Shown here piece after piece: positions 895-50,040 of a stretch of 64,000 nt of DNA. Source of the stretch: a virus; the IMG/VR virus record IMGVR_UViG_3300036827_000091, positions 1 to 64,000 of that record; one strand, 5' to 3'. A program made the position numbers and the translations under genes. The notes beneath the pieces were generated by a model. The model searched no databases. It was not told the DNA's origin and saw nothing but the letters and a program-made list of their open reading frames with translations. Each line of letters opens with the position of its first letter. The stretch's first letter is position 1.

Positions 895-1806
895 ATGCCG
901 GTTGGTGCACGCGGCTATTCCGATGGCCCGCGGATCACTGTCAACGCGCTGCTGAAGGACCCGCTCACCATCCCAGCGCTCATTCTGGACATGACGCAAA
1001 ACGAGTTCATCGTGGACTCGGTATTGCGCCCCGGCGGCAGCGCTCCTTCGGGCGCGGTGCGTTACTCGGAAAGCACGCCGCTGTACGCGGATGACTTCCC
1101 CGAGGTGCGCCCCGAGTTCGGCGAAGTGCCGGTCGTGCCGACCAGCCTGGGCCTGCCCCGGGTGGTGTTCGCGCACGAGCGCGCCATGGCGATCATGGTG
1201 TCGGACGAGATGCGCCGCCGCCAGACCGTGGACCCGGTGACCAGGCAGCTGATGCAGGTCAAAAACACGATGGTCTACTCCTGGAATGCCGCGTTCTACA
1301 GCGCGGTGGTGGCCAACGCCTCCGTCCAGACCTTGGCCGTCACCAACACCTGGGCTTCGGTTGCGGCCACCATCCGGGCCGACCTGGCACAGGCCATGTT
1401 CCTGCTGGAAAACAGCAACGTGGTCAGCCCGTCCGGGCTCACCCAGTGGTTCGGCTTCGAGGCCGACACCCTGATCATCAACCACGGCACGAAGAACACG
1501 CTGCTGCAAAGCAACACGTTCGCCGCGCCGTACGTCGGCGACATCGCCAGCGAAAACCTGCTGTACACGGGCGTGCTGCCGCAGAAGATCATGAACCTTG
1601 ACGTCATGGTGTCCCGCCAGGTCCCCGCGGGCAACGCGATCGTCATGCAGCGCAAGCGCTGCGGGTTCATCGCCGACGAGCTGCCGTTCATCGCCGGCCC
1701 GCTGTACCGCGACGAGCCGCGGAAGACGTACCGGTCCGACACCCAGCGGGCATCCGCCATCGGCCTGGACCAGCCGCTGGCCATCTGCCTGCTTTCTGGA
1801 GTCTGA
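895..1806 (+). CDS. major capsid protein, HK97 fold
   Basis: A 303-residue protein with the size and layout of actinophage HK97-type capsid proteins that lack a long N-terminal delta domain. An N-terminal arm is followed by a region with FAHERAMAIMVSDEMRRR (about residues 93-110), which fits the spine helix. The C-terminal A-domain strands end near the chain end (LPFIAGPLYRDEPRKTYR). It is preceded by a decoration-like gene and followed by connector genes, the usual order. The stop TGA shares its A with the next ATG. No separate protease is in view; it may lie before base 1. Confidence 0.88.
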   Translation: MPVGARGYSDGPRITVNALLKDPLTIPALILDMTQNEFIVDSVLRPGGSAPSGAVRYSESTPLYADDFPEVRPEFGEVPVVPTSLGLPRVVFAHERAMAIMVSDEMRRRQTVDPVTRQLMQVKNTMVYSWNAAFYSAVVANASVQTLAVTNTWASVAATIRADLAQAMFLLENSNVVSPSGLTQWFGFEADTLIINHGTKNTLLQSNTFAAPYVGDIASENLLYTGVLPQKIMNLDVMVSRQVPAGNAIVMQRKRCGFIADELPFIAGPLYRDEPRKTYRSDTQRASAIGLDQPLAICLLSGV

Positions 1807-6685: not shown

Positions 6686-6945
6686 TCCTCTACGCCGCCC
6701 GGCGCTATTTCAGCCTCAGCCCGGATGAGTGGGACGCGCTGCCGTGGGGGGTCAGGCGGGCCTACCTGGACGGGCTGGAAGCCGACGGGACAATCAGCTT
6801 CCAGCAAGGCGCTGACGACGAAGACGGGCTGCCGTCCGCTGACCAGGGCGGGCCGGTGCGCCGCGCCGTCAAGGCCAGCAGCGACGTGATTGACATGGCC
6901 GCGATGCGCAAGGAGCTGGAAGCGGCGCGGGGAGGCGCGAAATGA
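6622..6945 (+). CDS. tail assembly chaperone, -1 frame extension (T domain)
   Basis: This frame lies -1 to the upstream chaperone frame and encodes a charged helical domain (RRVILYAARRYFSLSPDEWDAL) of the type found in GT fusion proteins. It has no convincing start of its own; the internal ATG 6595 lacks a ribosome site, so expression by -1 frameshifting is inferred. No canonical slippery heptamer is present. The best slip candidate I see is C-CCG-GAA at 6619-6625. Its TGA overlaps the tape measure ATG. Confidence 0.62.
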   Translation, partial: GSRNRRWERGGDVSAVRSRRVILYAARRYFSLSPDEWDALPWGVRRAYLDGLEADGTISFQQGADDEDGLPSADQGGPVRRAVKASSDVIDMAAMRKELEAARGGAK

Positions 6946-9900
6946 GCTTTGACGCTGGCTCGATCATCGCGCACATGGACCTGGACGACGCCGAGTTCGA
7001 CCGCAAGCTGAAAGCCGACGTCGCCAGGATCGAGGCGTTCGAGCGGCGCACCCACGAGGCGAAGATCAGCGCCGAGCTGGACCCATCGGGGCTGAGCCGC
7101 GCCCGCCAGCAGATGGGACGGTTCGACCAGCAGATCACCCAGGACGCCCAGCAGCGGGCGCGTAATCACGGGTCGGTGCTGGGCGCGCTGATGGGCCTGT
7201 TCGGCGGCGGGCGGGCCGCTGGCGGGCCGGCAGGCGGCAGCGGGGGCAGCGGCCGGTCCCTGCTCGGCGGCTTGCTGGGCGGCGCTGGGCCGGTCCCCAC
7301 CGGGCTGCCGGTGGGTGCCCGGAGCCTGCTGCTGGGCACCGCCGGCGGGGTCGGGCTGGGCGCGCTGCCAGCGCTGCTCGGCGGCATCCTGCCGCTGGGC
7401 GTCGGCGCGATCGGCGCTGGGTTCGCCGGAATCGGCGCGAAGGCGCTGATCGGCACGAAAAACCAGCAGGGGCAAGCGCCCACCCAGGGGCCGCTGTACG
7501 CCGAGGCGCAGGCGGCGATGAAATCGATCAAATCCGCGTTTGACGCGGGCATCCAGCCGCTGATCGGCCCGCTGCGGCAGGCGTTCACCGTGATCCCGCG
7601 CCTGATCCATTCCCTCGGCCCCGACCTGCGGCAGGCGTTCGCCGGGGCGGGCACGCTGATCCTGCCCCTGGTCCGCGGGCTGGGCGACCTGGCGCATGCC
7701 GTGCTGCCGCTGCTCGGGCGGGCGTTCCGGGCCACCGCGCCGCTGATCAGGCCGCTGATCGACGGGTTTGGCAAGCTGCTGGCCGGGCTGCTGCCAGGGG
7801 TGATCGCCCTGCTGCGGGCCGCTTCCCCGGCGGTGCATGCCCTGGCAGGCATACTCGGCGAGCTGGGCTCGGGCATCGGCTTGATGCTGCGCGATTTCGC
7901 GCCGGCCGTCCGGGCCAGCAGCGTCATTTTCAAGGCCCTCGGCGACGTGATCGCCGCCGTTTTCCCGATCATCGGCAAGCTGGCAGCCGTCTTCGCCCGT
8001 TCCCTGGCCCCGGTGTTCGTGATCTTGGCCGGGGTGATCCGCCAGCTGCTGCCTTACCTGACGATCATCGGCAAGGTGTTCGCCTCCCTGGCCGGGGCGG
8101 TGCTGCAGGATCTTGTCGGGGTGTTCGGCTCCCTGGCCAAGCTGCTGGTGCTGATTTCCCCGTCGTTCCGCATCCTGGCCAGCGCCTTGTCGCAGACGTT
8201 CGCCATCCTGGAATCCAGCGGGGTGTTCGGCGTACTGGCCACCGCGCTGGAGAAGATCGTGCCGGTGCTGGCCCGGCTGATCAACCAGGTGGTCCGCGCC
8301 CTGGCCCCGGCGCTGCCGCCGCTGATCGCCTCGGCTGGCCAGCTGGTGCAGGTGCTGGTGCTGATGGCCGCGTCCGGGCTGACCGCGGTGCTGAAAGCGC
8401 TCACCCCCGTGCTGGTCCTTATCGCACAGCTGACCTCTCACCTGGCCACCTGGCTGAACAGCATGCACCTGCTCACGCCGGCGCTAGCGCTGCTGACCGC
8501 TGGGCTGCTGGCAAGCAAGGTGGGCATGATCGCGGGCAAGGCGGCGATTGCGGCATGGTTCGTGGCGTGCAGGATCGCCGCTGTAGCCACCAGGGCGTTC
8601 GCCGCCGCCCAGGCGATCCTGTCCGCAGCCATGGACGCCAACCCGATCATCCTGGTCACCCTGGCGATCATCGCGCTGGGCGTGGCCGCATACGAGCTGT
8701 ACAAGCACTGGAACACGGTGTGGGGGTTCATCAAGCGGATCGCCGAAGACGCCTGGAGCTTCCTCACCCACGGCTGGGGCCAGTTCCTGTTCCCCGGGCT
8801 GACCGCGATCCGGTACGCGGTCGAGTTCGTCCGCGACCACTGGCGGCAGGCGTGGGACGACATCAAAGGCGCGGGCCTGGCCGCCTGGCATTTCATCCAT
8901 GACAACATCGTGTCCCCGCTGGTCAACACCTTCACCCAGACCATCCCGGCTGCTTTCCGTGCTGCAGTCAGGGACATCGGCAACGGATGGGACGCCATCA
9001 AAAACGTGGTCCGGGCACCCGTGGCCTGGGTGGTGGACCACGTGATCGACGGGCTGATCTCCGCGTTCGACTGGATCAGCGGCAAGGTGGGCGGCCCGCA
9101 CATCAACCCGGTGCACCCGTTCGGGCTGGCCACAGGCGGGCGCATCCCCGGGTACGGCGGCGGGGACCGGCACATGGCGCTGCTGGAAGGCGGCGAGGCG
9201 GTTGTCTCGAAAGAAACCACCTCAGCGCATGCGGCCACGCTGGCCAGCTGGGGCGTGCCCGGGTTCCAGCGGGGCGGGGCGGTTGGCCAGGCCGCGCCGA
9301 ACCGCGGCGGCCCGCTGGGGTTCCTTGACCACATCTGGCACGGCATCGCTGACATCGGCAAGATCACCGCCGCGGTGTTCACCGGCAACACCACCGCCTT
9401 GGCCAACGCGATCAAGAGCATGATCCCAGGCGGGCTCGGCGGGGCCACCGCGGACATGGCCGGCCTGCTGGAGTCCACGGTGAAAACCCTGATCGGCGAC
9501 GTGGTGCACGCCCTAGTCGGGTACGGCGGCGGCGCTTCGGCGAACGCGATCGTCAGGGACGCCCTGGGCTGGCTAGGCAAAGTGCCTTATGTGTGGGGAG
9601 GGACTGCTGTTCCTGGTGGCGCGGACTGCAGCGGATTCGTCCAGACGATCTACCGGCGGCACGGGCTGACTGCGCCGCGCACATCGGAAGCGCAGGGCAA
9701 CTGGGTGCGCCGGTCCTCCCCCGCGCCGGGCGGCCTGGCGTTCTACAACTCCCCGGCTGGCGGAGCCCCGCCCGGCCACGTGGCGATCATCCGCACCCCC
9801 ACCCAGGTGATCTCCCAGGGCGGCGGGATGGGGCCGCAGCTGATGGCCTTGCACGGCATGCCGCTGATGTGGACGGGCATCCCGCCCGGCGGGTTCAGGA

Positions 9901-10487
9901 CCGGTGCCCGCGGCCAGTACGGCCTGTCCGGCCTGGAAAGCCTGTGGATGTCCGCCGGCGGGCCTGCGGGGGCCGCGCACGTGGCCGCCGCCATCGCCCT
10001 GGCCGAGTCCGGCGGCAACCCGAGGGCGCACAACCCGTCTGGGGCCTCAGGATTGTGGCAGATTCTCGGGCAAGTGTTCCCCGGCGACATTTTCAGCCCG
10101 TTCATCAACGCCCGCAACGCGGTCCGCAAGTATTACCAGGCAGGCGGATTCTCCCCGTGGGTCACCTACGAAGACGGCCAGTACCGGCGGTTCATGGACC
10201 AGGGCGGGTGGATGCAGCCGGGCGTGGCCTACGCCAACGCCACCGGGCAGCCTGAGGCGGTGCTTACCCCGCGGGAAAGCGAAGCCCACGTGATGCTGGC
10301 CCGCGCCGCCGACCAGATGATGCGCGGCGGCGGCAGCGGCGACCTGCTGGCTGAGCTGAAAGCCATGCGCCGGGAGCTGGCGCAGCTGCTGAAACGGGCA
10401 CCAGCCGCCACCGGGGCAGCGGTCGGCGACGCGATGAACACGGGATCACGGCAGGCCAGCCTGCGCGCCCAGTATTCGGCGAGGTGA
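6942..10487 (+). CDS. tape measure protein with NlpC/P60 and SLT lytic domains
   Basis: A 1181-residue protein that sets tail length. Residues 1-90 are a charged coil, followed by long hydrophobic helical stretches (about 160-570) typical of tape measures. Near residue 865 an NlpC/P60 peptidase domain begins (GWLGKVPYVWGG), with Cys896 in DCSGF and His946 in GHVAII as the likely catalytic pair. A soluble lytic transglycosylase-like domain follows, with Glu1022 in AESGGNP and GASGLWQI. Together they could cut peptide and glycan bonds during DNA entry. The start is the ATGA overlap at 6942. The SLT part closely resembles that of the secreted protein at 57698-58483. Confidence 0.9.
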   Translation: MSFDAGSIIAHMDLDDAEFDRKLKADVARIEAFERRTHEAKISAELDPSGLSRARQQMGRFDQQITQDAQQRARNHGSVLGALMGLFGGGRAAGGPAGGSGGSGRSLLGGLLGGAGPVPTGLPVGARSLLLGTAGGVGLGALPALLGGILPLGVGAIGAGFAGIGAKALIGTKNQQGQAPTQGPLYAEAQAAMKSIKSAFDAGIQPLIGPLRQAFTVIPRLIHSLGPDLRQAFAGAGTLILPLVRGLGDLAHAVLPLLGRAFRATAPLIRPLIDGFGKLLAGLLPGVIALLRAASPAVHALAGILGELGSGIGLMLRDFAPAVRASSVIFKALGDVIAAVFPIIGKLAAVFARSLAPVFVILAGVIRQLLPYLTIIGKVFASLAGAVLQDLVGVFGSLAKLLVLISPSFRILASALSQTFAILESSGVFGVLATALEKIVPVLARLINQVVRALAPALPPLIASAGQLVQVLVLMAASGLTAVLKALTPVLVLIAQLTSHLATWLNSMHLLTPALALLTAGLLASKVGMIAGKAAIAAWFVACRIAAVATRAFAAAQAILSAAMDANPIILVTLAIIALGVAAYELYKHWNTVWGFIKRIAEDAWSFLTHGWGQFLFPGLTAIRYAVEFVRDHWRQAWDDIKGAGLAAWHFIHDNIVSPLVNTFTQTIPAAFRAAVRDIGNGWDAIKNVVRAPVAWVVDHVIDGLISAFDWISGKVGGPHINPVHPFGLATGGRIPGYGGGDRHMALLEGGEAVVSKETTSAHAATLASWGVPGFQRGGAVGQAAPNRGGPLGFLDHIWHGIADIGKITAAVFTGNTTALANAIKSMIPGGLGGATADMAGLLESTVKTLIGDVVHALVGYGGGASANAIVRDALGWLGKVPYVWGGTAVPGGADCSGFVQTIYRRHGLTAPRTSEAQGNWVRRSSPAPGGLAFYNSPAGGAPPGHVAIIRTPTQVISQGGGMGPQLMALHGMPLMWTGIPPGGFRTGARGQYGLSGLESLWMSAGGPAGAAHVAAAIALAESGGNPRAHNPSGASGLWQILGQVFPGDIFSPFINARNAVRKYYQAGGFSPWVTYEDGQYRRFMDQGGWMQPGVAYANATGQPEAVLTPRESEAHVMLARAADQMMRGGGSGDLLAELKAMRRELAQLLKRAPAATGAAVGDAMNTGSRQASLRAQYSAR

Positions 10488-17532: not shown

Positions 17533-18504
17533 ATGTCTGTTTCCCCACCCGGCCCGCCTGACGCGGGCAGCCTGCTGTCCAGGTCCAGGGCCGGCAGCGC
17601 CGCGTTCGCCGCGCACCACGCCGCGCTGCCCTGGACTGGGCGCAGGGGCGTGCCAGGCATCGACTACGCCTGGTCGAAGCCATCGATCCCCGCGCTGAAA
17701 GCCGCGGGCGAGGTGTTCGTCGCCCAGTATTTCTCCCCCGACGAGTCCAAAGACCTGACCCCGGCGCGGGCGCATGATCTGCAGGCCGCCGGCATCAGGA
17801 TCGTCGTCGTGTACGAATACGGCGCGCAAGACGCCCGGCGGGGCCGGGACGGCGGCCGGCGGGACGCGACCGCCGCCGAGGCGCAGGCCAAGGCGTGCCA
17901 CGTAGACGGCATCCCCATCTACTGGGCGATCGACTACGACGCGCCGCCCGGCGACCAGAGCCTGCTCGGCGATTACGCCCGCGGGTGGACCGACGTGCTG
18001 GGCATGGACCGGGGCGGCAACGCCTACGGCGGGTTCTGGCCGTTGTCCCGGCTGAAAGCCGCCGGCCTGGTCAAACGGCTGTGGGGCACCCCGGCATGGT
18101 CGGGGTCCAACTGGGCCACGTCCGGGCTGGTGCCGGACATCATGCAAGGCTCGATGATCACCATCGGCGGGGTGCAGTGCGACCTGGACGCGGGCTTGAC
18201 CGCCGACCCCGGGTGGTGGCCGAGGCCGAAGCCGGCCGCCACCGGGGCCACCTGGCAGTGGCTCGCCACCGACGGGAACCTGTCCCTGGCCGGGGTGGTC
18301 CGCGAGCTGAACCGGAGCCTGCCCGCGGGCAGCCAAATCCGCCCGGCGCAGGTGCTGCGCATGACCGTCGGCAAAAACGGCGGCCAATGGGACGCGCCGG
18401 GCACCAGCATCCTGGGCGACTGGGTGAACAAGGTGCTCGGCGACCCGGGCACCGACCCGCACACGGCCATCCCCAAAGGGGCCAAGCTGTGGGTGCTTCG
18501 GTAA
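17533..18504 (+). CDS. endolysin with DUF1906 glycoside hydrolase-like domain
   Basis: A 323-residue protein. Residues about 40-235 match the DUF1906 (Rv2525c-like) barrel: GIDYAWSKPSIPALKAAG, then FVAQYFSPDESKDLTP, IRIVVVYEYG, and PIYWAIDYDA with acidic residues at strand ends. Residues about 240-323 form a second, LysM-like wall-binding candidate. DUF1906 proteins are common lysins in actinophages and are thought to attack peptidoglycan glycans. No signal peptide is present, consistent with holin-dependent release. Small membrane-protein genes follow. Confidence 0.8.
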   Translation: MSVSPPGPPDAGSLLSRSRAGSAAFAAHHAALPWTGRRGVPGIDYAWSKPSIPALKAAGEVFVAQYFSPDESKDLTPARAHDLQAAGIRIVVVYEYGAQDARRGRDGGRRDATAAEAQAKACHVDGIPIYWAIDYDAPPGDQSLLGDYARGWTDVLGMDRGGNAYGGFWPLSRLKAAGLVKRLWGTPAWSGSNWATSGLVPDIMQGSMITIGGVQCDLDAGLTADPGWWPRPKPAATGATWQWLATDGNLSLAGVVRELNRSLPAGSQIRPAQVLRMTVGKNGGQWDAPGTSILGDWVNKVLGDPGTDPHTAIPKGAKLWVLR

Positions 18505-19535: not shown

Positions 19536-19640
19536 TCACCAACGCTCCGGGCCGCCCAGCGCTATCCAGTCTTCCCAGCTGGCCAGCCCCGAGTGGGATA
19601 TCGCGTCGCAGATGCCCCGCCATTCGGTGTCTATATCCAC
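19536..19640 (-). CDS. 34-residue small protein downstream of HNH gene
   Basis: A short frame from GTG 19640 to 19536, with a strong purine-rich ribosome site (GAGGGGGG) about seven bases before it. The translation begins VDIDTEWRGICDAISHSG and looks protein-like (acidic, Trp-rich). It starts 26 bases after the HNH stop, so it could be the last gene of the transfer operon. Nothing is known of its role. Confidence 0.45.
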   Translation of the reverse strand: MDIDTEWRGICDAISHSGLASWEDWIALGGPERW

Positions 19641-19666
19641 TGCCTTGCCCCCCTCGCCCCGCGCTG

Positions 19667-20179
19667 TTACCAGCCGATCCCGTATGCCCGCAGCCAGCGC
19701 CGCGCCGACCGGCGGGCCGCCAGCTCGGCGGCCAGGATCTGCGCGGCTTCCGGTGGCGGTTTCCGCCTGCCCCGGTAGTACACTTTGCCGCTGGGCGCGA
19801 CCCAGTAGCAGTTTTTCACGCTGTTGCACCGCTTGCACAGCAGCGCCGAGTTCCACAGGCAGGTCAGCCCGCCCATGATCCACGGCGTCATGTGGTCCAC
19901 CGGGAACCGTTCTGCGCCTTTCGCCTGCCGGGCATGGCAGTGGACGCACTGCCCCCGGTCGGCGCGCTCCACCATCCGGCGCAGGTGCGGGGTGATCTTC
20001 GAGGACCGCTGCCTGGACCGCTGCCGTGGCCGGAACCGGCGGTGCGCCAGCCGGTGCCGGTGCTCGTGCCGGGCGCGGCGGGTGACGCACAGCGCCAGCA
20101 GGCCGCCCGGGTTGCTGAACGCGGACCCGAGGAAGCCGGCTGCTGGCAGCAGCGGGGCCAGCAGCAGGCCCGCGTTCAC
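19667..20179 (-). CDS. HNH endonuclease with hydrophobic N-terminus
   Basis: A 170-residue protein. The HNH nuclease core lies at about residues 75-125: CVHCH, VDHMTPWIMGG, then N with LLCKRCN, giving the His-Asn-His metal site and two zinc-binding Cys pairs. The first 30 residues are unusually hydrophobic (NAGLLLAPLLPAAGFLGSAF) and may anchor it to the membrane. It starts at GTG 20179 in a GTGA overlap with the FtsK-like gene, so the two are coupled. A free-standing homing HNH is the alternative. Confidence 0.8.
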   Translation of the reverse strand: MNAGLLLAPLLPAAGFLGSAFSNPGGLLALCVTRRARHEHRHRLAHRRFRPRQRSRQRSSKITPHLRRMVERADRGQCVHCHARQAKGAERFPVDHMTPWIMGGLTCLWNSALLCKRCNSVKNCYWVAPSGKVYYRGRRKPPPEAAQILAAELAARRSARRWLRAYGIGW

Positions 20180-22140
20180 CCCGCCACCGCCTCGACCTTG
20201 TCGTCCCCGGCGTCCCGCACCTTTCCAGTGTCAAACAGAATGTCGATCGCCGAGGCCACCTCGGACACTTTGAACGTGGTGGCGCTGATGATCTGCCCGG
20301 GGGTCATCGCCCCCTGGACCCGCAGCACGCCCAGGATTTCCAGCTGCACCCGGGCCTGGCTGTCGGCTGCCGCCGCGATGCCCGCCAGGATGTCGCCTGC
20401 GGCTTCCACAGACGCGGCCAGCCTGGCCGCCACGCCCTGGTCCGGCGGGCAGCCAGGCAGCTGATTCGCGGCCTCATACGGGTCTTCCAGCCAGTCGGAC
20501 CGCATGGCCACCGACGGGCGCGGGGTCACGTCTCCGGTGGCGGCGAACCCGAGGCCCTCGGTGCGGGTGCCGTTGGGGAACTTTTTGGGCAGCTCGTTCG
20601 GGTTGGCCGGGATGTTGGCCATGCCGTGGCTGACCCGGTCCCCGGTGCGGAAGCAGATGACGTTTCCGCCAACCAGCATGCTGCGCAGCTCGCCCAGGCC
20701 CAGCTCTTTGATCGACGGCACCTGGCAGGCCAGCCGGACCCGGAAACCAACTTTCCGCCCCAGTTTCAGGATGTCCAGCAGCAGCGCGGGCGCGCCTTTG
20801 CACGCCAGCAGGATCGGGGCCTCGTCAATGGTGATTTCGGTGATGGGCAGCGCGAACTCGCGCAGCTGGTCCCCGGCCAGGCGCGCCGCCGCGGCGATGC
20901 CCAGCTGCTTCTCAGCGCGGGCCTTGGCCACCATCCAGTAGTCGTAGAAGCCGAAACCGCGCACCCGGCGGCCGGTCCGCGGGTGCGCCCATTCCAGGCC
21001 GGCCAGCTCCTGCGACCGGTCGAACATGGCGGCGTTCAGGCCGCGCAAGTATGTCATGCACTCGTCGGTGCCGACGGCGTACGGCACCTTGTCCCGCCAT
21101 GCGGGCAGCGCCTGCCCCATCTGCGGGTCCAGGATCACCGGGGCGACGATGCCGGATTGCAGGCTGATGGCCAGGCCCATGTCGATCAGGCCGGTTTTCC
21201 CGCTGCCCGGCGCGCCCGCGATGATCGTGTGCACCGTGCCGCCGCCCAGGCCAGGCCCGAACCACGCCTCGCGGACCGGCTCCCCGTCCGGGTAGCGGCC
21301 GATCACCGCCAGCCCGGTGGCCAGGTCCAGGCCGGCTCCGTCCCAGCGGCGCGGGGTGTCCAGCACGCCGCGGGGCAAGATGGTCAGCAGGCCGCGGGAC
21401 TCGTCGTCAGCGCCGGGGTCCGGCTCGGTGTAGCAGGTGATCACCGACTTGTGGAACGCGGCGGCCACCTCGCGCCGTTTGACGGCGATCTGCCCCATGT
21501 GGGTTTCGATGCCGTCGCACCTGATCGGCCACTGCTGCCCCGCTCCTGCCGGGCGGGCCGCGCCCAGCTCGGCATGCCATTTCTGCTTGGCGCACAGCGC
21601 CGCCCAGATGTCTTCCACCGTGGTGTCCGGCTTCTCGGGCTCGGCTGCCGGGCCGCGCCAGCGGTGCCGGTGCAGCCAGCTGCCGGACGGCACCGCCCAC
21701 CCGGTGACGCCCAGCGCCGACCACGGGCCGTACCGGAACAGGAACAGGGCCAGCGCCCACGCCGCCGCCCACCCGGCCATCGACTGGTTGTACTTGCGGA
21801 CCGCAGCCGGGCGGTGCCGGGTGCCTGCCACCGTGGCCAGCACGGTGACCGCGGCGGCGATGGCCACGGCCAGCAGGTGCACGTGGGAGGCGCGGGCGGC
21901 CAGCCCGGCCATGGCCGCCGCCGCCCAGCACAGCGGCACCAGCTGGAACCGGAACCGGAACGGGCGGCGCGCCGCCGGCGGCCGGCCGGTGGCCTCGCGC
22001 CATTGCGCGTCCACCATCTGCTTGATCTTGCGCTGCGTCTTGGCGTCCAGGTCCGGGGGCAGCGCCACCGAGGGACGCTGCGTTTTGCGCAGCGACCCCC
22101 GGTCAGCCGGACGCCGTCCCATGTGGCTTAGTGCTCCCAT
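20176..22140 (-). CDS. FtsK/TraSA-like DNA translocase
   Basis: A 654-residue protein with two to three membrane helices between residues 65 and 140, then an FtsK/SpoIIIE ATPase: Walker A GAPGSGKTG near residue 310 and Walker B ITIDEA near 433. Its C-terminus carries a winged-helix-like gamma-type segment (GAMTPGQIISATTFKVSEVASAIDIL). In Streptomyces plasmids and AICEs one such protein moves double-stranded DNA between hyphae. The neighbouring Spd-like membrane genes and HutC regulator fit that. Two in-frame ATGs (22140, 22122) arise from an 18-bp tandem duplication. Confidence 0.85.
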   Translation of the reverse strand: MGALSHMGRRPADRGSLRKTQRPSVALPPDLDAKTQRKIKQMVDAQWREATGRPPAARRPFRFRFQLVPLCWAAAAMAGLAARASHVHLLAVAIAAAVTVLATVAGTRHRPAAVRKYNQSMAGWAAAWALALFLFRYGPWSALGVTGWAVPSGSWLHRHRWRGPAAEPEKPDTTVEDIWAALCAKQKWHAELGAARPAGAGQQWPIRCDGIETHMGQIAVKRREVAAAFHKSVITCYTEPDPGADDESRGLLTILPRGVLDTPRRWDGAGLDLATGLAVIGRYPDGEPVREAWFGPGLGGGTVHTIIAGAPGSGKTGLIDMGLAISLQSGIVAPVILDPQMGQALPAWRDKVPYAVGTDECMTYLRGLNAAMFDRSQELAGLEWAHPRTGRRVRGFGFYDYWMVAKARAEKQLGIAAAARLAGDQLREFALPITEITIDEAPILLACKGAPALLLDILKLGRKVGFRVRLACQVPSIKELGLGELRSMLVGGNVICFRTGDRVSHGMANIPANPNELPKKFPNGTRTEGLGFAATGDVTPRPSVAMRSDWLEDPYEAANQLPGCPPDQGVAARLAASVEAAGDILAGIAAAADSQARVQLEILGVLRVQGAMTPGQIISATTFKVSEVASAIDILFDTGKVRDAGDDKVEAVAG

Positions 22141-22155
22141 GTGGCCTAGTGCTCC
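22120..22155. repeat. 18-bp tandem duplication at FtsK-like start
   Basis: Two adjacent 18-bp units (22120-22137 and 22138-22155) differ at one base. Each carries an ATG on the minus strand, so the duplication adds six in-frame residues (MGALSH) ahead of the original start MGRRP and also covers the stop of the upstream gene. Confidence 0.8.
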
Positions 22156-23075
22156 ACGAAGTCGGCTTCGGCGATGCCCTCAGCCGCGTCCTGGGTCTCC
22201 TGCACCGGCCCGTAGTTGGACACGACGTGCTCTTTCAGCCCGGTCAGGGCGTCCATCGCCTGATCCCGCTCTTTTTGCATGGCGGCCAGGTGGGATGCCG
22301 CGTCCACCGCCTTGCCGGCCGCGGTCGAATCATTGCGGATCACCTGGCCCAGCTCGTCGGCCATCGTCGTGATCTTGTTCACCACCTCGCCTGTGTCCAG
22401 GCCCTGCTCGCAGGCGCTGATCGCCTCGTCGCACTGCTCGACGGTGGTGTCGTAGTTCAGGTCTGACACTGCTCCTCCTGTGGTTGACGGGCTGCGCCCG
22501 TTGCTGCTGGCCTGGCCGTTGCTGGCCTTGTGGCCGTTGCTGGCCGGGCCGTTGCCCGGGGTCTGGCCGTCGGCCAGCGGCGGGTCGCTTGCGTGACAGC
22601 TGCAATCCGGGTCGGTGCAGCCTGCTCCTCGTGCCATGTCGTGTTCCCCGTTCCCGGCAGCGATCCGCCGTTTCTCCGCGTCCAGCTGGTCGGTCATGGT
22701 GGGCTCGGCCGCCTGCTTCCGGGCCACTTCCAGCCGGTGCTTGTGGGCGGCCATCTCCGCCCGGACCCGGGCGATCTGGCTTTGGTGGTCAGCGACCGCC
22801 CCGGCGTGGTCCCGCTCTGCTTCCGCCCGGGACAGCTTGTGCTCGTTCCAGCCTTTCGCCCACCCGTGGCGGGCGTGCGGCAGGCCGCGGAAAACCTCGC
22901 CCGCCCAGAACCCGCCCACTGCGGCGCGGGCGGCGCGGGCTTTCGCCCGCTGGGCGGGCGAAGTGCCCTGGCGGGCTTTCTGGTATTTCGCCCACCGGGC
23001 GCTGGCTGGCTTGCGCAGCGCCTCCACTCCCCGGGAGCACGCCCAGGCGAGGCCGATCAGGAACAGCAGCTCCAT
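22146..23075 (-). CDS. membrane-anchored coiled-coil protein of transfer module
   Basis: A 309-residue protein with an N-terminal hydrophobic segment (MELLFLIGLAWACSRG), a basic region, a long coiled coil at about residues 85-125, a Cys/His cluster (CTDPDCSCHA), a low-complexity Asn/Ser linker and an acidic helical C-terminal part. The gene lies upstream of the translocase with only five bases between. Such anchored coiled-coil proteins accompany TraB/TraSA in actinomycete transfer loci, but no specific family is recognised. Confidence 0.65.
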   Translation of the reverse strand: MELLFLIGLAWACSRGVEALRKPASARWAKYQKARQGTSPAQRAKARAARAAVGGFWAGEVFRGLPHARHGWAKGWNEHKLSRAEAERDHAGAVADHQSQIARVRAEMAAHKHRLEVARKQAAEPTMTDQLDAEKRRIAAGNGEHDMARGAGCTDPDCSCHASDPPLADGQTPGNGPASNGHKASNGQASSNGRSPSTTGGAVSDLNYDTTVEQCDEAISACEQGLDTGEVVNKITTMADELGQVIRNDSTAAGKAVDAASHLAAMQKERDQAMDALTGLKEHVVSNYGPVQETQDAAEGIAEADFVEH

Positions 23076-23078
23076 GGC

Positions 23079-23501
23079 CTACCCCTGTGTCTGGCTGATG
23101 CCATGCTGTACGTCGCCAGGCAGTCCGTTGACCGCGGCGAACGGGGTGGCCCCGGCGACAGCCATTATGGCCAGGGCGGCGGCGATCCAGTAGGTGGACT
23201 TTTTCGCTGACCCTTTCGGGTGCACGCCGTGCAGCAGCTCGGCGAACATGAGGATGACGATGATGGCGGTCAGCGTGGCCGCGCTGATGCCCAGCCACTT
23301 GCCGCTGGCCAGCCCGAGCAGGCCGGCGACGAAAGCCAGCGCCCGAGCGATCCAGTGCAGCACCGGCCCGGTGAACCCGAACAGCAAGATGCCGATGAAC
23401 ACCGCCCAGACGCGGGCCTTGGCAAACCGGTTGCGGAAGTACGCCCAGACGGACAGCGCGACCATGATCGCGCCGATGCTGCCTTGTGCCAGTCCTGACA
23501 T
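23079..23501 (-). CDS. multi-pass membrane protein, Spd-like
   Basis: A 140-residue protein with four predicted membrane helices (about residues 5-22, 30-50, 52-80 and 105-125). Its size and location beside an FtsK-like transfer gene recall the Spd (spread) proteins of Streptomyces plasmids, which help intramycelial spread. The match is by layout, not by motif. Confidence 0.6.
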   Translation of the reverse strand: MSGLAQGSIGAIMVALSVWAYFRNRFAKARVWAVFIGILLFGFTGPVLHWIARALAFVAGLLGLASGKWLGISAATLTAIIVILMFAELLHGVHPKGSAKKSTYWIAAALAIMAVAGATPFAAVNGLPGDVQHGISQTQG

Positions 23502-23510
23502 CGCCTGCTC

Positions 23511-23924
23511 CTAGATCACGTGAGTCAGCCACAGCACCAGGGCCACCGTGGCGTAGAAGGCGGCCCGCTTGGGCAGCGAGTCCCCGGCCAGCACAAGCAG
23601 GTACAGGACTGGTGCCTCGATGAAAGCGTGGAACACGCCATAGGCCAGCCGCGGGTATTTCAGCCCGCGGGGCAGGTAGTCCGCTGCGGCCTTGTGCAGC
23701 GCCCAGTAGTCCATGCACGACGGGGGGTTCCCGTGCACCCAGCTGGCCCCGGCGAAAATGGCCCCCACCGCGGCAGCCGATGGCACCCGCCACGACCGCC
23801 GCGGCGCGGGCGCTTCTTCACGCGGGCGCGCAGGCGCGTACTGCGCCTTGGGCTCCTGGCCGGCCCCGGGCTTTTCCGCCTCCGACGGCCGGACCGGGAG
23901 GGCCACCACGTTGCCCGCTGTCAT
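23511..23924 (-). CDS. membrane protein of transfer module
   Basis: A 137-residue protein with a Pro/Glu-rich cytoplasmic start of about 45 residues and then three hydrophobic segments ending at the very C-terminus (AAFYATVALVLWLTHVI). It overlaps the next upstream gene by four bases. It belongs to the same set of small membrane proteins as its neighbours; function is inferred only from context. Confidence 0.6.
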   Translation of the reverse strand: MTAGNVVALPVRPSEAEKPGAGQEPKAQYAPARPREEAPAPRRSWRVPSAAAVGAIFAGASWVHGNPPSCMDYWALHKAAADYLPRGLKYPRLAYGVFHAFIEAPVLYLLVLAGDSLPKRAAFYATVALVLWLTHVI

Positions 23925-24148
23925 GCCGCTGCTCCGTCTAGCTCCAGGGCTCGCTGGTACAAGGCGCTGGCCTCGGCGTGCAGCACCGAGCCACGCTGGG
24001 GGTGCCGGTAGGCCACAGACCGCAGCATGTCGAACGCGGCGGCCAGCTGGGCCTCCCCGGTCGGCGCGCCTTGCACGCGGCTCTTGTGCCGCGCCATGCG
24101 CGCACGAGCCCGGGTCGGCTTGCCGGTGCCCTGCCGCCTGCCAGCCAT
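23921..24148 (-). CDS. small basic protein
   Basis: A 75-residue protein beginning MAGRRQGTGKPTRARARMARHK, strongly basic for the first 25 residues, then a helical domain. It could bind DNA or membrane lipids. The start at 24148 overlaps the upstream stop as TGATG, showing coupling inside the transfer operon. Confidence 0.6.
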   Translation of the reverse strand: MAGRRQGTGKPTRARARMARHKSRVQGAPTGEAQLAAAFDMLRSVAYRHPQRGSVLHAEASALYQRALELDGAAA

Positions 24149-24336
24149 CAGCGGATCACCGCCCACAGCCGCGGGGCGAAATTGGCCAAGGCCACCGGCA
24201 GCGCCATCAGCGCCCACAGCGCCAGCAAGGTGTAAAACGGGGCGACTGCCAGCGCCATGCACATGACAGCGACGGCCCAGGCGCACCAGTAAAGCTTCGG
24301 GTGCGTGCAGTGCCAGCAGCGAGGGTGGTATGTCAT
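24148..24336 (-). CDS. small two-helix membrane protein
   Basis: A 62-residue protein, MTYHPRCWHCTHPKLYW at its start, with a CxxC plus His that could bind metal, then two hydrophobic helices. TGATG overlaps join it to both neighbours. It is another member of the Spd-like membrane group. Confidence 0.6.
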   Translation of the reverse strand: MTYHPRCWHCTHPKLYWCAWAVAVMCMALAVAPFYTLLALWALMALPVALANFAPRLWAVIR

Positions 24337-24530
24337 CAGTAGCGCACCTCCTGCCGGCCGAGGCGGATCGAAAACTCGGCCCACCGGCCCTGGTCCCAGC
24401 GGTTGGCTTCCAGCCACGACTTCAGCAGCTCGCGGGCCTCGCCTTCGTCGTCCCGCAGGTCAGTGATGTTCGCGGTGATCCGGTCCTCGAAGTTGCCTTT
24501 CCGGTGGACCTCCAGCTCGGTGCTGGCCAT
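24336..24530 (-). CDS. first gene of the leftward transfer operon
   Basis: A 64-residue acidic protein with AAGGAGG just before ATG 24530. It is the promoter-proximal gene of the block that runs to the HNH gene, divergent from the HutC regulator. The short beta-then-helix sequence (ANITDLRDDEGEARELLKSW) has no recognised family. Its leader crosses the two GTATA operators, so it should be controlled by the regulator. Confidence 0.6.
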   Translation of the reverse strand: MASTELEVHRKGNFEDRITANITDLRDDEGEARELLKSWLEANRWDQGRWAEFSIRLGRQEVRY

Positions 24531-24569
24531 GGCTGCCTCCTTCCGCCGTGAGCGCGTATGCCTACGAAT

Positions 24570-24587
24570 GTATATACCGGTATAGAC
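24570..24587. promoter_or_regulatory. paired HutC/GntR-type operators GTATATAC and GTATAGAC
   Basis: Two octamers, GTATATAC (24570-24577) and GTATAGAC (24580-24587), both fit GT-N-TA-N-AC, the half-site pattern known for HutC-type GntR regulators. They are spaced 10 bp, one helical turn, and lie between the divergent regulator gene and transfer operon. Binding there would control both directions. Confidence 0.68.
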
Positions 24588-24606
24588 CGTTGTCCACTCC
24601 CCCGGA

Positions 24607-24612
24607 TACCCT
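24607..24612 (+). promoter_or_regulatory. -10 TACCCT of leaderless HutC gene promoter
   Basis: TACCCT ends six bases before ATG 24619 and there is no ribosome site, the layout of leaderless actinobacterial messages in which transcription starts at the A of the ATG. Confidence 0.55.
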
Positions 24613-24618
24613 GAGCGC

Positions 24619-25356
24619 ATGATCACATCCGTGAAGTGGCGGCAGATCGCCCGCGACCTGCGTAACCGGATCGCCCGGGGTGAGCTTCGCCCAGGTGACC
24701 CGCTGCCGTCCGAGCGGGAGCTGGAGGCCCGTCACGGAGTCGCCCGCGGCACCGCCCGGGTGGCGCTGCAGCACCTGGTGCAAACCGGCGCGGCGGTGGA
24801 CGGCAGCCCGCGCCGGGTGGCACACGCCGAGCTGCTGACCGTGCATATCACCCGCACCGCGGACCGCACCTCGCCCGGCGAATCGCCTACCCTGGGCGCG
24901 GACTCCTGGCTGGGCGACATGCGGGCGGCCGGGCGAGAGCCCGCCCACGAGCTGGACGTGATCACCCGGCAGGCCAGCCGCGAGCTGGCCCAGCGGCTGG
25001 AAGTAGGCGAAGGCTCAGCGGTGGTGGCCCGGCGGCAGCTGCGGCGCGCCGGCGAGCGCCCGCACAATGAGATCACCTACTGGTACCCGGCGGGCGTGGC
25101 CCGCGGGACTCCGCTGGCTAGCCCGGCCAGCATCATCGAAGGGGCGCTGGCATGGCTGGAAACCAACCGGGGGCAGCTGCTGCACGAGGTGGAGATCACC
25201 GCGAGGATGCCCGGCGAAGACGAGGCGGGCCGGCTGCAGATCCCCGGCGGGGTGCCGGTGGCTGTGGTGTGGCGGACGTCGCGGACCCTGGCCGGGGTGC
25301 CGATGGTGACGTCGATGGCCGTGTACCCTGCGGACCGGACCAGGCTGGCCCTCTGA
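24619..25356 (+). CDS. GntR family regulator, HutC subfamily (KorSA/TraR-like)
   Basis: A 245-residue repressor. The N-terminal winged helix (about residues 5-70) has the GntR signature: RIARGELRPGDPLPSERELEARHGVARGTARVALQ, read in parts. Residues 85-240 form a UTRA ligand domain (an LLHEVEIT-type strand and a VWRTSRT strand). HutC members such as KorSA and TraR repress transfer genes and themselves in Streptomyces plasmids and AICEs. The operators just upstream and the divergent membrane-protein operon fit the same job here. It appears to be translated from a leaderless message. Confidence 0.88.
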   Translation: MITSVKWRQIARDLRNRIARGELRPGDPLPSERELEARHGVARGTARVALQHLVQTGAAVDGSPRRVAHAELLTVHITRTADRTSPGESPTLGADSWLGDMRAAGREPAHELDVITRQASRELAQRLEVGEGSAVVARRQLRRAGERPHNEITYWYPAGVARGTPLASPASIIEGALAWLETNRGQLLHEVEITARMPGEDEAGRLQIPGGVPVAVVWRTSRTLAGVPMVTSMAVYPADRTRLAL

Positions 25357-25453
25357 TCCACGGCGACGCCTCGATGGGGGAGGTGCCGCTGGCCGCGCAT
25401 CACGGCGCTGGCAGCTGGCCGCCGATGGCCCCGGCCGGGGAAGGCTGCGATCG

Positions 25454-25726
25454 CTAGGGCGTGTTTTGCCCCGGAACCGAGGAGCCGGGCGACCTCGCGG
25501 GGGGTGAGCGGCTCCACCGGGTACCGCCGCTTAGGCTTACCCTTCGGTCACGGGGATAGTAACCCTCTAGCTGTGGCTGCCTGCTGTCGTCATCCTCCAG
25601 CAGCGCAGCGGCCCTGTAAGCGGTTTCGCAGTCGGCGGCCTCGCCCACCACCCGGGCAAGCTCACCATCCTGCGGGTCACGGACGACCAGCCAAGGACCC
25701 TCGACCGCGCTGTACCGGCCGCTCAC
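25454..25726 (-). CDS. hypothetical protein
   Basis: A 90-residue protein from GTG 25726, overlapping the previous stop as GTGA. The first 60 residues look folded (VSGRYSAVEGPWLVVRDPQDG, with acidic helix); the last 30 are Ser/Arg/Pro-rich. It converges on the HutC gene across a 97-bp gap that holds only the GC-rich palindrome CCCCGGCCGGGG. Confidence 0.5.
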   Translation of the reverse strand: MSGRYSAVEGPWLVVRDPQDGELARVVGEAADCETAYRAAALLEDDDSRQPQLEGYYPRDRRVSLSGGTRWSRSPPARSPGSSVPGQNTP

Positions 25727-25920
25727 CGGCTGTCCCCGGTATCGGATTGCCCCGGAACCGATACCCACCGCTTGGCGGCAGCCATCTGGGTTTCGTGCTT
25801 CTCGCGGGCCGTCCGGTAATACTCGGCGGCAGGAACGAGGTCGGCCTCCCCGCAGGAGCACACGTACTCATCACACCCGCAGTTGCGGCACACGCCGTCA
25901 TAGTCAGGTGGTCCCGGCAC
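25723..25920 (-). CDS. small zinc-ribbon protein
   Basis: A 65-residue protein. GTG 25920 is six bases after a perfect AGGAGG and is preferred over an ATG farther upstream. CRNCGCDEYVCSCG near the N-terminus provides a four-Cys metal site, followed by an amphipathic helix. It overlaps both neighbours. Related CxxCGC motifs recur in other accessory proteins of this window. Confidence 0.6.
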   Translation of the reverse strand: MPGPPDYDGVCRNCGCDEYVCSCGEADLVPAAEYYRTAREKHETQMAAAKRWVSVPGQSDTGDSR

Positions 25921-26347
25921 TGTCAGCCTCCTGGGTTGTGTTTTTCTCTCCAACCGATACTGACGGGGACGGCTCAGCGGAGTAGATGATCTCCAGCAGG
26001 CAGTAACGCCCCTTCTGCGACCGCAGTTCCCCTAGCAGGTCATGGCCGCCGACGTTGATGTCCTCGTCAGTCCACAGGTAGCCGGTGATCTCCGTATAGG
26101 CGTGCCGGAATGTGGCGTCGCCCGCGCCGAGCAGTTCCCGGAGCGCACCGTCGATCATGTCCTCATCGCTGCGGGGCTCAGCCGCAGTCCAATACCGCAC
26201 CGTCAGATACCGGCCGAACCGGTCCAGATCCCCGCTGATCATTTCAGCCAGTGGCTCATCGCCGGGGTCAAGGAACAAGATGTCCATCCCCTCGCCGCGG
26301 TCATGCTCGGCGAGGGTGCCTCTGTAGCGCCGTGCCTCGTCTGTCAC
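25904..26347 (-). CDS. hypothetical acidic protein
   Basis: A 147-residue acidic protein starting at GTG 26347 (GTGA overlap with the DUF2637 gene). It has alternating helices and strands (MDILFLDPGDEPLAEMISGD; VRYWTAAEPRSDEDMIDG) and looks like a single compact domain. Many such proteins sit beside SpdA-like genes, but I recognise no family. Confidence 0.6.
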   Translation of the reverse strand: MTDEARRYRGTLAEHDRGEGMDILFLDPGDEPLAEMISGDLDRFGRYLTVRYWTAAEPRSDEDMIDGALRELLGAGDATFRHAYTEITGYLWTDEDINVGGHDLLGELRSQKGRYCLLEIIYSAEPSPSVSVGEKNTTQEADSAGTT

Positions 26348-27018
26348 TTGCCGCCCCCGTTCTGCTGGCTGGCCAGGAACACCCGGGCCTGGTGCTGGCT
26401 GATGCCGTGCCGGGCGGCGAACGACCGGCGTCCCATCGGCTTGCGCTTCTGCTCGTCTTGCGCGGCCAGCGCGGCCAGCTGCGCGTACGACGGAACGTCG
26501 TTCGCAGGCTGCCTGCGCGCCTTGCTCTTGCCCGGCTGCCGGGCTGGGCTCGTGCTGAGGCCATCTTCCGTCCCGGGCTCCCGCCCGTCCGTCTTCCCGG
26601 CGTTCAGCTTTGCGATGCCCAGCCCGGTGCCCAGGCTCGCGGCAGCCGCCAGCGGGGCAGCAGCTGCAGCGAGTTTCGCAGCCCATGGCGCGGCAGGGCC
26701 GACGTGGGCTATGTTCCCAGCTAGCGAGGCAAACAGTCCGGCTGCGGTCAGCGCCCACGCCCACACTTTCACGTAAACCTGTTCGTGACGCCTGACCGCG
26801 CTGTACAGGCGAAGCTCGCCCACCACCAGGAACGAGTCGAGCAGCAGGGGGAAGCCAACGGCCACCCAGCCGGGCATCTGCGCCCGCTGGGTGGCGAAGT
26901 CATACAGGCCCCGGTAAGACATGGCCAGCGCGGCGGCCGAGGCTGCCCAGGTGACGATCGCCACCCCGCGGTCCGCCAGCCAGATAGAGTCCCGCTGTTC
27001 TGCCTGCTTGGCTGCCAT
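26344..27018 (-). CDS. DUF2637 membrane protein (SpdA-like)
   Basis: A 224-residue protein. Residues 15-135 hold four hydrophobic helices in the DUF2637 pattern (SYRGLYDFATQ, then GFPLLLDSFLVVGELRLY). DUF2637 is found in actinomycete plasmid and AICE transfer regions. The C-terminal 60 residues are soluble, with a helix-turn-helix-like end (MGRRSFAARHGISQHQARVFL). It supports the reading of this block as a conjugative transfer module. Its leader carries the TGTACTTACA site shared with the divergent gene. Confidence 0.75.
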   Translation of the reverse strand: MAAKQAEQRDSIWLADRGVAIVTWAASAAALAMSYRGLYDFATQRAQMPGWVAVGFPLLLDSFLVVGELRLYSAVRRHEQVYVKVWAWALTAAGLFASLAGNIAHVGPAAPWAAKLAAAAAPLAAAASLGTGLGIAKLNAGKTDGREPGTEDGLSTSPARQPGKSKARRQPANDVPSYAQLAALAAQDEQKRKPMGRRSFAARHGISQHQARVFLASQQNGGGK

Positions 27019-27034
27019 CTGCCTCGCCTCCTGG

Positions 27035-27044
27035 TGTACTTACA
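27035..27044. promoter_or_regulatory. TGTACTTACA operator-like dyad in divergent promoter
   Basis: The decamer TGTACTTACA lies in the 61-bp gap between divergent genes starting at 27018 (-) and 27080 (+). It is one of at least six near-palindromic copies in intergenic DNA of this window and is well placed to control both genes. Confidence 0.55.
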
Positions 27045-27079
27045 TTGGTGAGTGTACGACCACGGAAGGACAGCCCGCC

Positions 27080-27295
27080 ATGACCCAGCCGGACCGGCCC
27101 GTCACCCCCAACCGCAGCGCCGGCCGGATCGAGGACGCCCTGTGGCAGCCGTTCCTGGCCAAAGCCCGCGCCGAGGGCCTGACCAACACCGATGCGTTCC
27201 GGCTGCTGATCCGCGAGTGGACCAGCTCGCCGGATGGCCCTGCCCGCAGGGGGCAGGGCCGCCGGTCACGCTTGCGTGGTGCCCGTCCTGGTTAG
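27080..27295 (+). CDS. small ribbon-helix-helix-like DNA-binding protein
   Basis: A 71-residue protein with a core at residues 12-48 (RIEDALWQPFLAKARAEG, then TNTDAFRLLIREW) that resembles the strand-helix-helix of CopG/RHH proteins, and a basic C-terminal tail. It is the only rightward gene between the HutC gene and 47.7 kb. Its divergent position and the dyad in its promoter suggest an autoregulated repressor. It ends in a four-base convergent overlap with the next gene. Confidence 0.6.
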   Translation: MTQPDRPVTPNRSAGRIEDALWQPFLAKARAEGLTNTDAFRLLIREWTSSPDGPARRGQGRRSRLRGARPG

Positions 27296-27851: not shown

Positions 27852-28355
27852 TCACATTCCCCGCATCGCCGCCCTGGCCCCGTAGCGGGCCTGCGCCGGG
27901 GTGAACTGATTGCCATACGGCGATTCCAGCTGCTGCACCAGGCCGCTGTAGGAGAACCCCTGCCCGTCGCGCAGGTACCCTTTGGCGCTGATCACGGCCT
28001 GCTTGTTCCAGTTGACCCTGATATGCGCCAGCGCCCACGTGGCCAGCCGACGAGAAAACCCTTCCCCGTAGGACGATGTCAGCTGGTCCAGCAGCCCGCG
28101 CCGGGAAAACCCCTGCCCGTCGGACAAGTACGACTTGGCTGAGTCGAGCGCCTGCTGCTGTGCGGTGGTCAGCTTCGGGGCAGCCGGTGCTGTCGTGGCC
28201 GGGGCTGACGTGCACGGCCAGCATTTCGCGGCCGGGGTGACAGCCCTCCCCGAGGCGGCAGGATGGGCGGGCGGCGTGCTGCCCCCGCAGGCTGCCGCGC
28301 CGGCGAGCAAGCCGGTGACGATGGCCGCTGCCGCGGCTTTACGGATGATTCGCAT
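27852..28355 (-). CDS. Ltp-type superinfection exclusion lipoprotein
   Basis: A 167-residue lipoprotein: basic start, hydrophobic run and lipobox Cys23 (GLLAGAAAC), then a Pro/Ala linker. Two tandem Ltp repeats follow (about residues 65-110 and 113-155), each with the AKSYL...GFS..GL..QL.S.YG..F pattern of PF07553. In Streptococcus phage TP-J34 such a prophage lipoprotein blocks DNA injection by related phages, apparently by acting on the tape measure. Expected role: host-surface exclusion of competing phages during lysogeny. Confidence 0.85.
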   Translation of the reverse strand: MRIIRKAAAAAIVTGLLAGAAACGGSTPPAHPAASGRAVTPAAKCWPCTSAPATTAPAAPKLTTAQQQALDSAKSYLSDGQGFSRRGLLDQLTSSYGEGFSRRLATWALAHIRVNWNKQAVISAKGYLRDGQGFSYSGLVQQLESPYGNQFTPAQARYGARAAMRGM

Positions 28356-49397: not shown

Positions 49398-49441
49398 TCA
49401 TCGAGCACGGGGTCCTCATGAAGACTGGGAGGAGGTCCGCG

Positions 49442-49549
49442 ATGGCTGAGCGCCAGTGTCCTGTGTGCGGCAAGGCCATCCCCCGGTCGCTGGGATTTTT
49501 CGCTGTGTACTGCTCGCGGCGGTGCGCGAAAAAAGACGGGGCTGTGTGA
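49442..49549 (+). CDS. small zinc-finger protein
   Basis: A 35-residue protein; ATG 49442 is seven bases after GGGAGGAGG. CPVCGKAI and YCSRRCA form a four-Cys zinc site of the FCS/MYM look. ATG 49394, overlapping the Prim-Pol stop, would give a 51-residue version in the same frame. Confidence 0.6.
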   Translation: MAERQCPVCGKAIPRSLGFFAVYCSRRCAKKDGAV

Positions 49550-50014: not shown

Positions 50015-50040
50015 CCAGGCATAAGGCAAGGGGAGCGACC

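Follow-up and report, generated by a model that had tools for sequence, protein, structure and literature searches.

A probable, exchangeable TraB-type DNA transfer cassette in the genome of a tailed phage

Why should a tailed phage carry, between its lysis genes and its early genes, a run of genes that resembles the conjugative transfer region of Streptomyces plasmids? The question is raised by the region from 19.67 to 27.3 kb (the cassette) of the IMG/VR record IMGVR_UViG_3300036827_000091, a tailed-phage contig of 64,576 b, of which the first 64,000 nucleotides, most of the record, were analyzed and are called the window here. A role in the transfer of the phage genome is most likely, because homology and gene layout match those of TraB/Spd cassettes. 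Judged from sequence comparison, the cassette is probably an exchangeable TraB-type module for the transfer or spreading of double-stranded DNA, in a phage likely to be kept, at least at times, as a plasmid. An initial annotation had proposed a conjugative-transfer-like module in a possible phage-plasmid; its observation was right, and its interpretation is likely and partly unproven. The principal features of the cassette are listed below.

20176..22140, minus strand: TraB/FtsK-like DNA translocase of 654 amino acids (aa) with an N-terminal transmembrane region, a P-loop motor and a C-terminal winged helix (motifs, profiles, tree)
22146..23075, minus strand: 309-aa Spd-like accessory protein with only a short hydrophobic N-terminus (BLASTP, hydropathy)
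23079..23501, minus strand: 140-aa Spd-like membrane protein with about four transmembrane helices (hydropathy; homologue in the same place in the related viral contig G003, E = 1e-4)
23511..23924, minus strand: 137-aa Spd-like membrane protein with one transmembrane helix (hydropathy; a G003 protein at the corresponding position is weakly homologous, E = 0.018)
24148..24336, minus strand: 62-aa membrane protein from an internal ATG of an 89-aa open reading frame (ORF), with one or two transmembrane helices, Spd-like by size and transmembrane helices only
24336..24530, minus strand: 64-aa protein from an internal ATG of a 96-aa ORF, first gene of the leftward operon (ORF and position only)
24573..24584, no strand: perfect 12-bp palindrome TATACCGGTATA, candidate GntR operator, between the divergent starts of the GntR gene and the operon
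24619..25356, plus strand: GntR/UTRA (HutC-type) regulator, divergent from the operon (Pfam GntR 9.2e-14, UTRA 2e-14, above cut-off)
26344..27018, minus strand: DUF2637 protein of 224 aa with three or four transmembrane helices and a helix-turn-helix-like C-terminal end (PF10935, E = 1.1e-8)

The translocase possesses a Walker A motif (GAPGSGKT, residues 309-316), a Walker B motif (ITIDEA) and a GRKVG...CQVPS motif, and hydropathy places a hydrophobic region at residues 63-109. Together with the profile matches and the C-terminus of an AlphaFold2 model, these features describe a single FtsK-type motor with a P-loop, a membrane anchor and a C-terminal winged helix, in agreement with the FtsK/TraSA-like, membrane-anchored translocase of the initial annotation. 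The NCBIfam model of plasmid TraB (NF041214) matched residues 72-489 (E = 2.8e-11, 42.6 bits), and Pfam FtsK_SpoIIIE (PF01580) gave a sub-threshold match (E = 0.049, 13.5 bits; 3.8e-4 as a one-genome search). Both scores lie below the curated cut-offs, 800 bits for the NF041214 equivalog and 24 bits for PF01580, leaving the protein short of equivalog-level membership. This failure is not decisive because the Tra protein of pIJ101 itself has no NF041214 match. Since the score is far under the cut-off and the model also matches in control genomes, the assignment holds at superfamily level only; for the latter reason the match was rejected as proof on its own. A profile of the plasmid relatives searched against PDB sequences matched FtsK motors best (2e-8) and winged helix-turn-helix domains as well.

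A tblastn search of 50,697 phage records gave no match to the translocase; in plasmids there were 20, all of them from actinomycetes, at 28-35% identity. In the conserved-stretch scan for further relatives, a seven-sequence alignment was too divergent to use; a scan from a sequence pair found only G003 among viral contigs and nothing in 84,980 genomes. A tree was made by a quick method from 313 columns of the motor region, and some of its long branches, that of pZL12 among them, are unsure. In it, the translocases of the window, G003, the plasmid-phage PhiNon1 and nine plasmids form one clade (Shimodaira-Hasegawa-like approximate likelihood ratio test value of 99), which is separate from pIJ101-type TraB and from cellular FtsK. 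The tree thus places the translocase among plasmid proteins and away from cellular ones, and the phage-only grouping that the initial annotation had named as speaking against it was not seen. Capture of a cellular FtsK was considered and rejected, since the protein falls outside the FtsK clade, inside which the translocases of two other related contigs (G007 and G008) fall.

The operon upstream of the translocase encodes proteins of 309, 140, 137, 62 and 64 aa, three of the five with predicted transmembrane helices. At least four small Spd-like membrane proteins had been claimed initially; those of 140, 137 and 62 aa stand, and the 309-aa protein shows only a short hydrophobic N-terminus. The latter has equivalents in G003 (E = 3e-7) and in a Kitasatospora plasmid (E = 2e-5) at a similar place upstream of the translocase, and no homologue of the 62-aa protein was found. 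Hydropathy, the G003 homologues and the layout of p7, a 7-kb Streptomyces plasmid, agree in identifying linked spd membrane-protein genes. In p7, an FtsK/TraB-like protein, a 98-aa protein and a DUF2637 protein with a helix-turn-helix end are encoded in a row, which makes DUF2637 a component of the transfer region in at least one small plasmid. The DUF2637 assignment in the window is above cut-off, as annotated. The described SpdB2, which resides in the membrane, interacts with TraB and binds double-stranded DNA (PMC4170104), fits this picture, and the context of the DUF2637 protein suggests that it is SpdB2-like. The main ORFs of the cassette are intact with coding-type G+C content at third codon positions, and the catalytic motifs of the translocase are kept.

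The HutC/GntR regulator is secured by both of its domains, and relatives of it occur on the plasmids, on pZL12 and on a Saccharopolyspora pogona plasmid; a KorA/TraR-like role is suggested. Operators, in the plural, had been annotated for this regulator. One perfect palindrome, TATACCGGTATA, lies in the intergenic region, where 0.17 matches would be expected allowing up to two mismatches, and overlaps a promoter-like match on the minus strand (24596-24567); a second copy was not found. Near-matches to the SpdA site sps (CGTCACGTGACG) were fewer than expected by chance.

The likeness to cassettes of Streptomyces conjugative plasmids is borne out by homology and layout shared with actinomycete plasmids, PhiNon1 and pZL12. 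In the plasmid stretches read, the order is mostly GntR, DUF2637, proteins of about 90, 155, 400 and 130 aa, and the translocase, which is close to that of the window. These large plasmids (58-713 kb, from Streptomyces, Kitasatospora, Micromonospora and others) share the translocase clade and a similar surrounding order; unlike the window, they show no phage structural genes in the stretches read, and some have relaxases (MOBF, MOBP). On two of them (L015:14780-17392 and L016:13249-15717), a full FtsK motor stands right or soon after the window-like translocase, so that two ATPases of different families lie side by side. The TraB/Spd systems of pIJ101, pSVH1 and pSAM2 resemble the cassette in their FtsK-type motor with a C-terminal winged helix, their small Spd proteins and an adjoining GntR-type repressor. 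They differ in that their motor belongs to a separate clade, that no clt was found in the window, and that the host element of the window is a phage. The transfer of double-stranded DNA, known from these systems of small plasmids and actinomycete integrative and conjugative elements (AICEs), would be a further point of likeness.

Three elements combine phage genes with such a cassette. Among plasmid records, a related capsid protein occurs only in plasmid unnamed1 of S. pogona NRRL30141 (NZ_CP031143), a closed circle of 86 kb with 55% capsid identity and the nearest cultured capsid relative. Its capsid and four further head/tail genes match those of the window, and it has a GntR gene divergent from genes for DUF2637 and a TraB/FtsK-like 657-aa protein with motor motifs (L118:38024-39997). 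Unlike the window, it possesses ParA, a tyrosine integrase and RecT-type recombination, its translocase is divergent, and no match to the replication core with DNA polymerase A (PolA) was found in it. The wider capsid lineage thus includes a member that persists as a circle with the same kind of cassette. This plasmid (NZ_CP031143.1), most of whose genes are annotated as encoding hypothetical proteins, seems to be a phage-plasmid that has gone unrecognised. One run of its genes, with identical protein accessions, occurs twice in direct orientation (L118:3723-13308 and L119:24118-33703) and in part a third time, inverted (L119:34607-41050), which would reflect a large duplication or an assembly fault.

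The second element, Nonomuraea plasmid III, is the best-covered plasmid match to the translocase, holds terminase, portal, capsid and tail genes, and is the published plasmid-phage PhiNon1 of Nonomuraea gerenzanensis (NZ_LT559120). PhiNon1 is a 59-kb plasmid-phage with a copy number of 17 that also integrates (PMC5431353). This complete plasmid-phage shares with the window DUF2637 and a translocase of 654 aa from the same clade, with small proteins and a 396-aa protein ahead of it; it differs in its tyrosine integrase, its integration at a tRNA-Val gene and its head module, and the GntR profile had no match in it. A term search of the main text of its description found no discussion of a transfer module (PMC5431353). 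The third, pZL12 (phage ZL12, GQ919031), is a classical Streptomyces plasmid-phage kept as a circular plasmid, in which tailed-phage genes accompany the FtsK-like 71c and a divergent GntR gene (80) that frame eight accessory genes (72c-79c). Unlike the window, pZL12 has ParA, ParB and an integrase, as well as a different size and backbone; its translocase gave no BLAST match to that of the window at E 1, and the DUF2637 profile did not match it. Conjugal transfer of pZL12 has been reported to need a major tra gene and two adjacent genes (PMC3583192).

Is the cassette a fixed part of the phage genome? The backbone markers used for comparison are as follows.

895..1806, plus strand: major capsid protein (phrog_1650, 8e-70), query for relatives
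6942..10487, plus strand: tape measure protein (phrog_4197, 7e-30)
17533..18504, plus strand: endolysin with an Rv2525c-like glycoside hydrolase fold, near the left cassette edge (PF08924, 3.5e-17; phrog_13480, 1.6e-19)
27852..28355, minus strand: small secreted protein right of the cassette (58% identity to G010 at 57264)
44173..45966, minus strand: PolA, replication-core marker (PF00476, 7.6e-35)

The capsid protein search yielded 47 related viral contigs, of which nine long ones were compared, and no match among genome contigs. Four of the nine (G002, G004, G005 and G010) share the replication core of the window (PolA at 45-49% identity) and gave no match to the FtsK, DUF2637, TraB or GntR profiles; some relatives are fragments, and the absences in G004 weigh less than those in G002, G005 and G010. 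Three relatives, 75-84 kb in length, have overlapping ends. In G010 and G002, the lysis genes pass directly to the early genes, which leaves an empty site where the cassette occupies about 7.5 kb in the window, and the G010 homologue of the secreted protein at 27852-28355 adjoins the lysis genes. The other five (G003, G006, G007, G008 and G012) have structural genes in common with the window (capsid at 77-86% identity) and no PolA-core match, and all of them carry cassettes. Since the window combines the replication core of the cassette-free set with a cassette like those of the other set, it is a mosaic. The translocases of these carriers are of three kinds, window-like (G003), cellular-FtsK-like (G007 and G008) and of a third clade (G006 and G012), so that distinct types recur at dissimilar sites within one phage lineage. 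The DUF2637 match is clear for G003, G006 and G007 and weak for G008, and G012 gave none; a GntR gene is present in every cassette carrier except G006 and PhiNon1, not always adjoining (it is far off in G007). The cassette of G003 (capsid at 86% identity) is homologous in order, with a translocase at 38% identity and proteins of 381 aa (E = 3e-7) and 141 aa (E = 1e-4).

By profile searches, the first 18 kb of the window are occupied by head and tail genes that read rightward (scaffold, capsid, head-tail adaptor, tape measure and endolysin), which supply the structural side of a phage-plasmid. The tail genes had been called complete; the capsid, adaptor, tape measure and endolysin genes were confirmed, and the word fits the tail genes at most. 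Leftward early genes follow at 27.8-47.6 kb (ArdC, a PD-(D/E)XK nuclease, an SNF2-type helicase, a ParB-like protein and PolA), and from 47.8 kb rightward genes encode a methyltransferase, a primase-polymerase (prim-pol), a D5/VapE-type helicase and a Dda-type helicase. Genes of replication or partition type are thus those for prim-pol, the D5 helicase, PolA and the ParB-like protein; prim-pol occurs in phages and AICEs alike. The ParB-like protein (DUF6551, phrog_1033) and ArdC, both confirmed, are not diagnostic of a plasmid. The prim-pol and D5/VapE helicase are encoded in two separate ORFs (48456-51875), and form one protein in many phage primases. No overlap was found between the ends of the 64,576-b record, and the genes for the large terminase subunit and the portal seem to lie outside it. 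About 13 kb of the genome seems to be missing, because in G010 a P-loop gene, interpreted from its motif and position only as that of the large terminase subunit, sits about 14 kb ahead of the capsid gene; the break apparently falls in the terminase region, just before that subunit. By visual comparison, the truncated last gene (63845-64000, continuing to 64576 in the record) resembles the protein preceding the terminase-like GGRGSGKT gene of G012.

Streptomyces TraB moves double-stranded DNA without other secretion parts (PMC12857230), Spd proteins serve intramycelial spread, and clt consists of 8-bp repeats (PMC12857230, PMC4170104, PMC3218068). By analogy, the GntR/UTRA protein would bind the intergenic palindrome and repress the leftward operon and its own gene. 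On release, the small membrane proteins and the DUF2637 protein may join the translocase in the membrane or septum, as homology and layout suggest for a TraB/Spd-like assembly. The translocase hexamer would hold phage DNA through its C-terminal winged helix and pump it, intact and double-stranded, through septa or into a neighbouring hypha. Virions would then be one route of spread and the mycelium another, the latter open to the phage as long as its DNA forms an extrachromosomal circle; such a state is probable by analogy with the S. pogona plasmid, PhiNon1 and pZL12. For the broader statement the chances appear even: that a soil actinophage lineage recurrently acquires and swaps TraB-type cassettes, spreading in capsids and by double-stranded-DNA conjugation, the cassette of the window having been added to a backbone in whose closest relatives the searches for lysogeny and plasmid genes found nothing.

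Several observations weigh against a transfer function in a plasmid-like phage. The AlphaFold2 model of the translocase, made from two sequences, has a mean pLDDT (predicted local distance difference test) of 35, and only the C-terminal helix-turn-helix region is confident. In the tree, the translocase clade of the window is far from pIJ101 TraB, and to our knowledge no member of this clade of large plasmids has been experimentally tested. The clt-like or TRS-like (TraB recognition sequence) repeats expected for the translocase were not found: the search of the record for tandem repeats, clustered 8-10-mers, over-represented 8-mers and approximate repeats in non-coding gaps gave nothing beyond composition or coding repeats, a search that a repeat-free site would escape. 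ParA had no match in the 64.6-kb record either; both absences stand beside the 13 kb that seem missing. No integrase (PF00589 or PF00239) was matched in 64.6 kb, which leaves the element without an AICE hallmark. The initial annotation had named an integrase as evidence against itself, and none of the computable findings of that kind was made. With neither ParA nor an integrase in the record, a persistent state is at most probable; in favour of the phage-plasmid proposal stands the S. pogona plasmid, a closed circle that carries ParA and a cassette. Finally, the cassette-free PolA-core relatives show no lysogeny gene among those searched for and could be strictly lytic.

The segregation role that the initial annotation had offered as an alternative survives best among the rivals. 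The translocase and Spd-like proteins would then serve maintenance only, moving genomes across septa or into prespore compartments of one mycelium, with no transfer between mycelia. In its favour, Spd proteins serve intramycelial spreading, for which a role in stability has been proposed (PMC4170104); a ParB-like protein without ParA is encoded in the window; and the translocases of G007 and G008 are close to cellular FtsK. However, the TraB motor of the characterised plasmids moves DNA between mycelia (PMC12857230), and pZL12, with a similar layout, has been reported to be conjugally transferred; restriction to maintenance is therefore considered rather unlikely. The existence of relatives without a cassette weakens phage functions more generally. 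The cassette abuts lysis genes and combines several small membrane proteins with an adjacent HNH nuclease, as might suit superinfection exclusion, membrane modification at lysis, or an aid to packaging or DNA ejection, but it is absent from end-overlapping relatives with common structural and replication genes, similar ordered genes occur on plasmids without phage genes in the stretches read, and the relatives have a terminase-like P-loop gene upstream of the capsid genes, all of which makes such a role improbable. A terminase or packaging role for the translocase itself was considered and rejected.

A passenger insertion from a plasmid, decayed or without function for the phage, would be consistent with the missing second operator and clt and with the differing cassette content among relatives; the intact main ORFs with coding-type base composition, the kept catalytic motifs and the recurrence of distinct translocase types at unlike places, which fits repeated selection, make it very improbable. 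An assembly chimera of plasmid and phage hardly deserves credence, even for a single metagenomic contig with joins known from assembly alone, since cassettes occur on five independent contigs of the same capsid lineage and on the closed plasmid of the isolate S. pogona, the capsid protein of which is 55% identical.

A TraB-type transfer cassette in a phage is of a kind already known from pZL12 and PhiNon1. The variant seen here, which was not found described in the papers that were searchable, is a lineage of phages among which the cassette is interchangeable, the site being empty in close relatives; an entire virus lineage appears to gain and lose it by exchange. For P1-like phage-plasmids, a recent study describes conjugation as a matter of relaxases or origins of transfer (oriT) gained by elements that lose phage functions (PMC10879196). 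If the transfer reading is true, a phage lineage that keeps its structural genes intact and repeatedly carries TraB-type cassettes would use two horizontal routes at once, missed by MOB-type typing. Such typing returns 'non-mobilizable' for most actinomycete plasmids with this translocase, for PhiNon1 and for the S. pogona phage-plasmid, because TraB-type transfer uses no relaxase. Passage of the phage genome through a mycelium would then require no lysis and would not be stopped by receptor loss, and the cassette might mobilise chromosomal DNA too, like TraB. Plasmid 1 of S. pogona makes this reading testable, as the strain is in a collection.

Two genes at the edges are of uncertain membership in the cassette; the first overlaps the 3' end of the translocase gene.

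19667..20179, minus strand: HNH/endonuclease VII-like nuclease (PF01844, 4.7e-6; phrog_1035, 1.2e-7)
27080..27295, plus strand: Arc-like ribbon-helix-helix protein of 71 aa (phrog_6506, E = 3.6e-5)

Near-identity DNA searches of the window against phages and plasmids gave no match. A 168-base tandem repeat in two copies (78% matches) was noted at 61697-62082, inside a minor-tail-like gene (60697-62751). A cellular-FtsK-like translocase, as in G007, is encoded in 65 IMG/VR contigs (L120-L184), many of 50-120 kb, and a DUF2637-like ORF lies within reach at 10 of these loci; some of the contigs may be plasmids misfiled as viruses. In one of them, a relative of the window translocase (L127:5523-7595; 28% identity, E = 3e-20) forms a tandem with a motor of FtsK type (from 10001), an arrangement that resembles the Micromonospora plasmids pVMKU and NBC_00821 and possibly represents a two-motor system.

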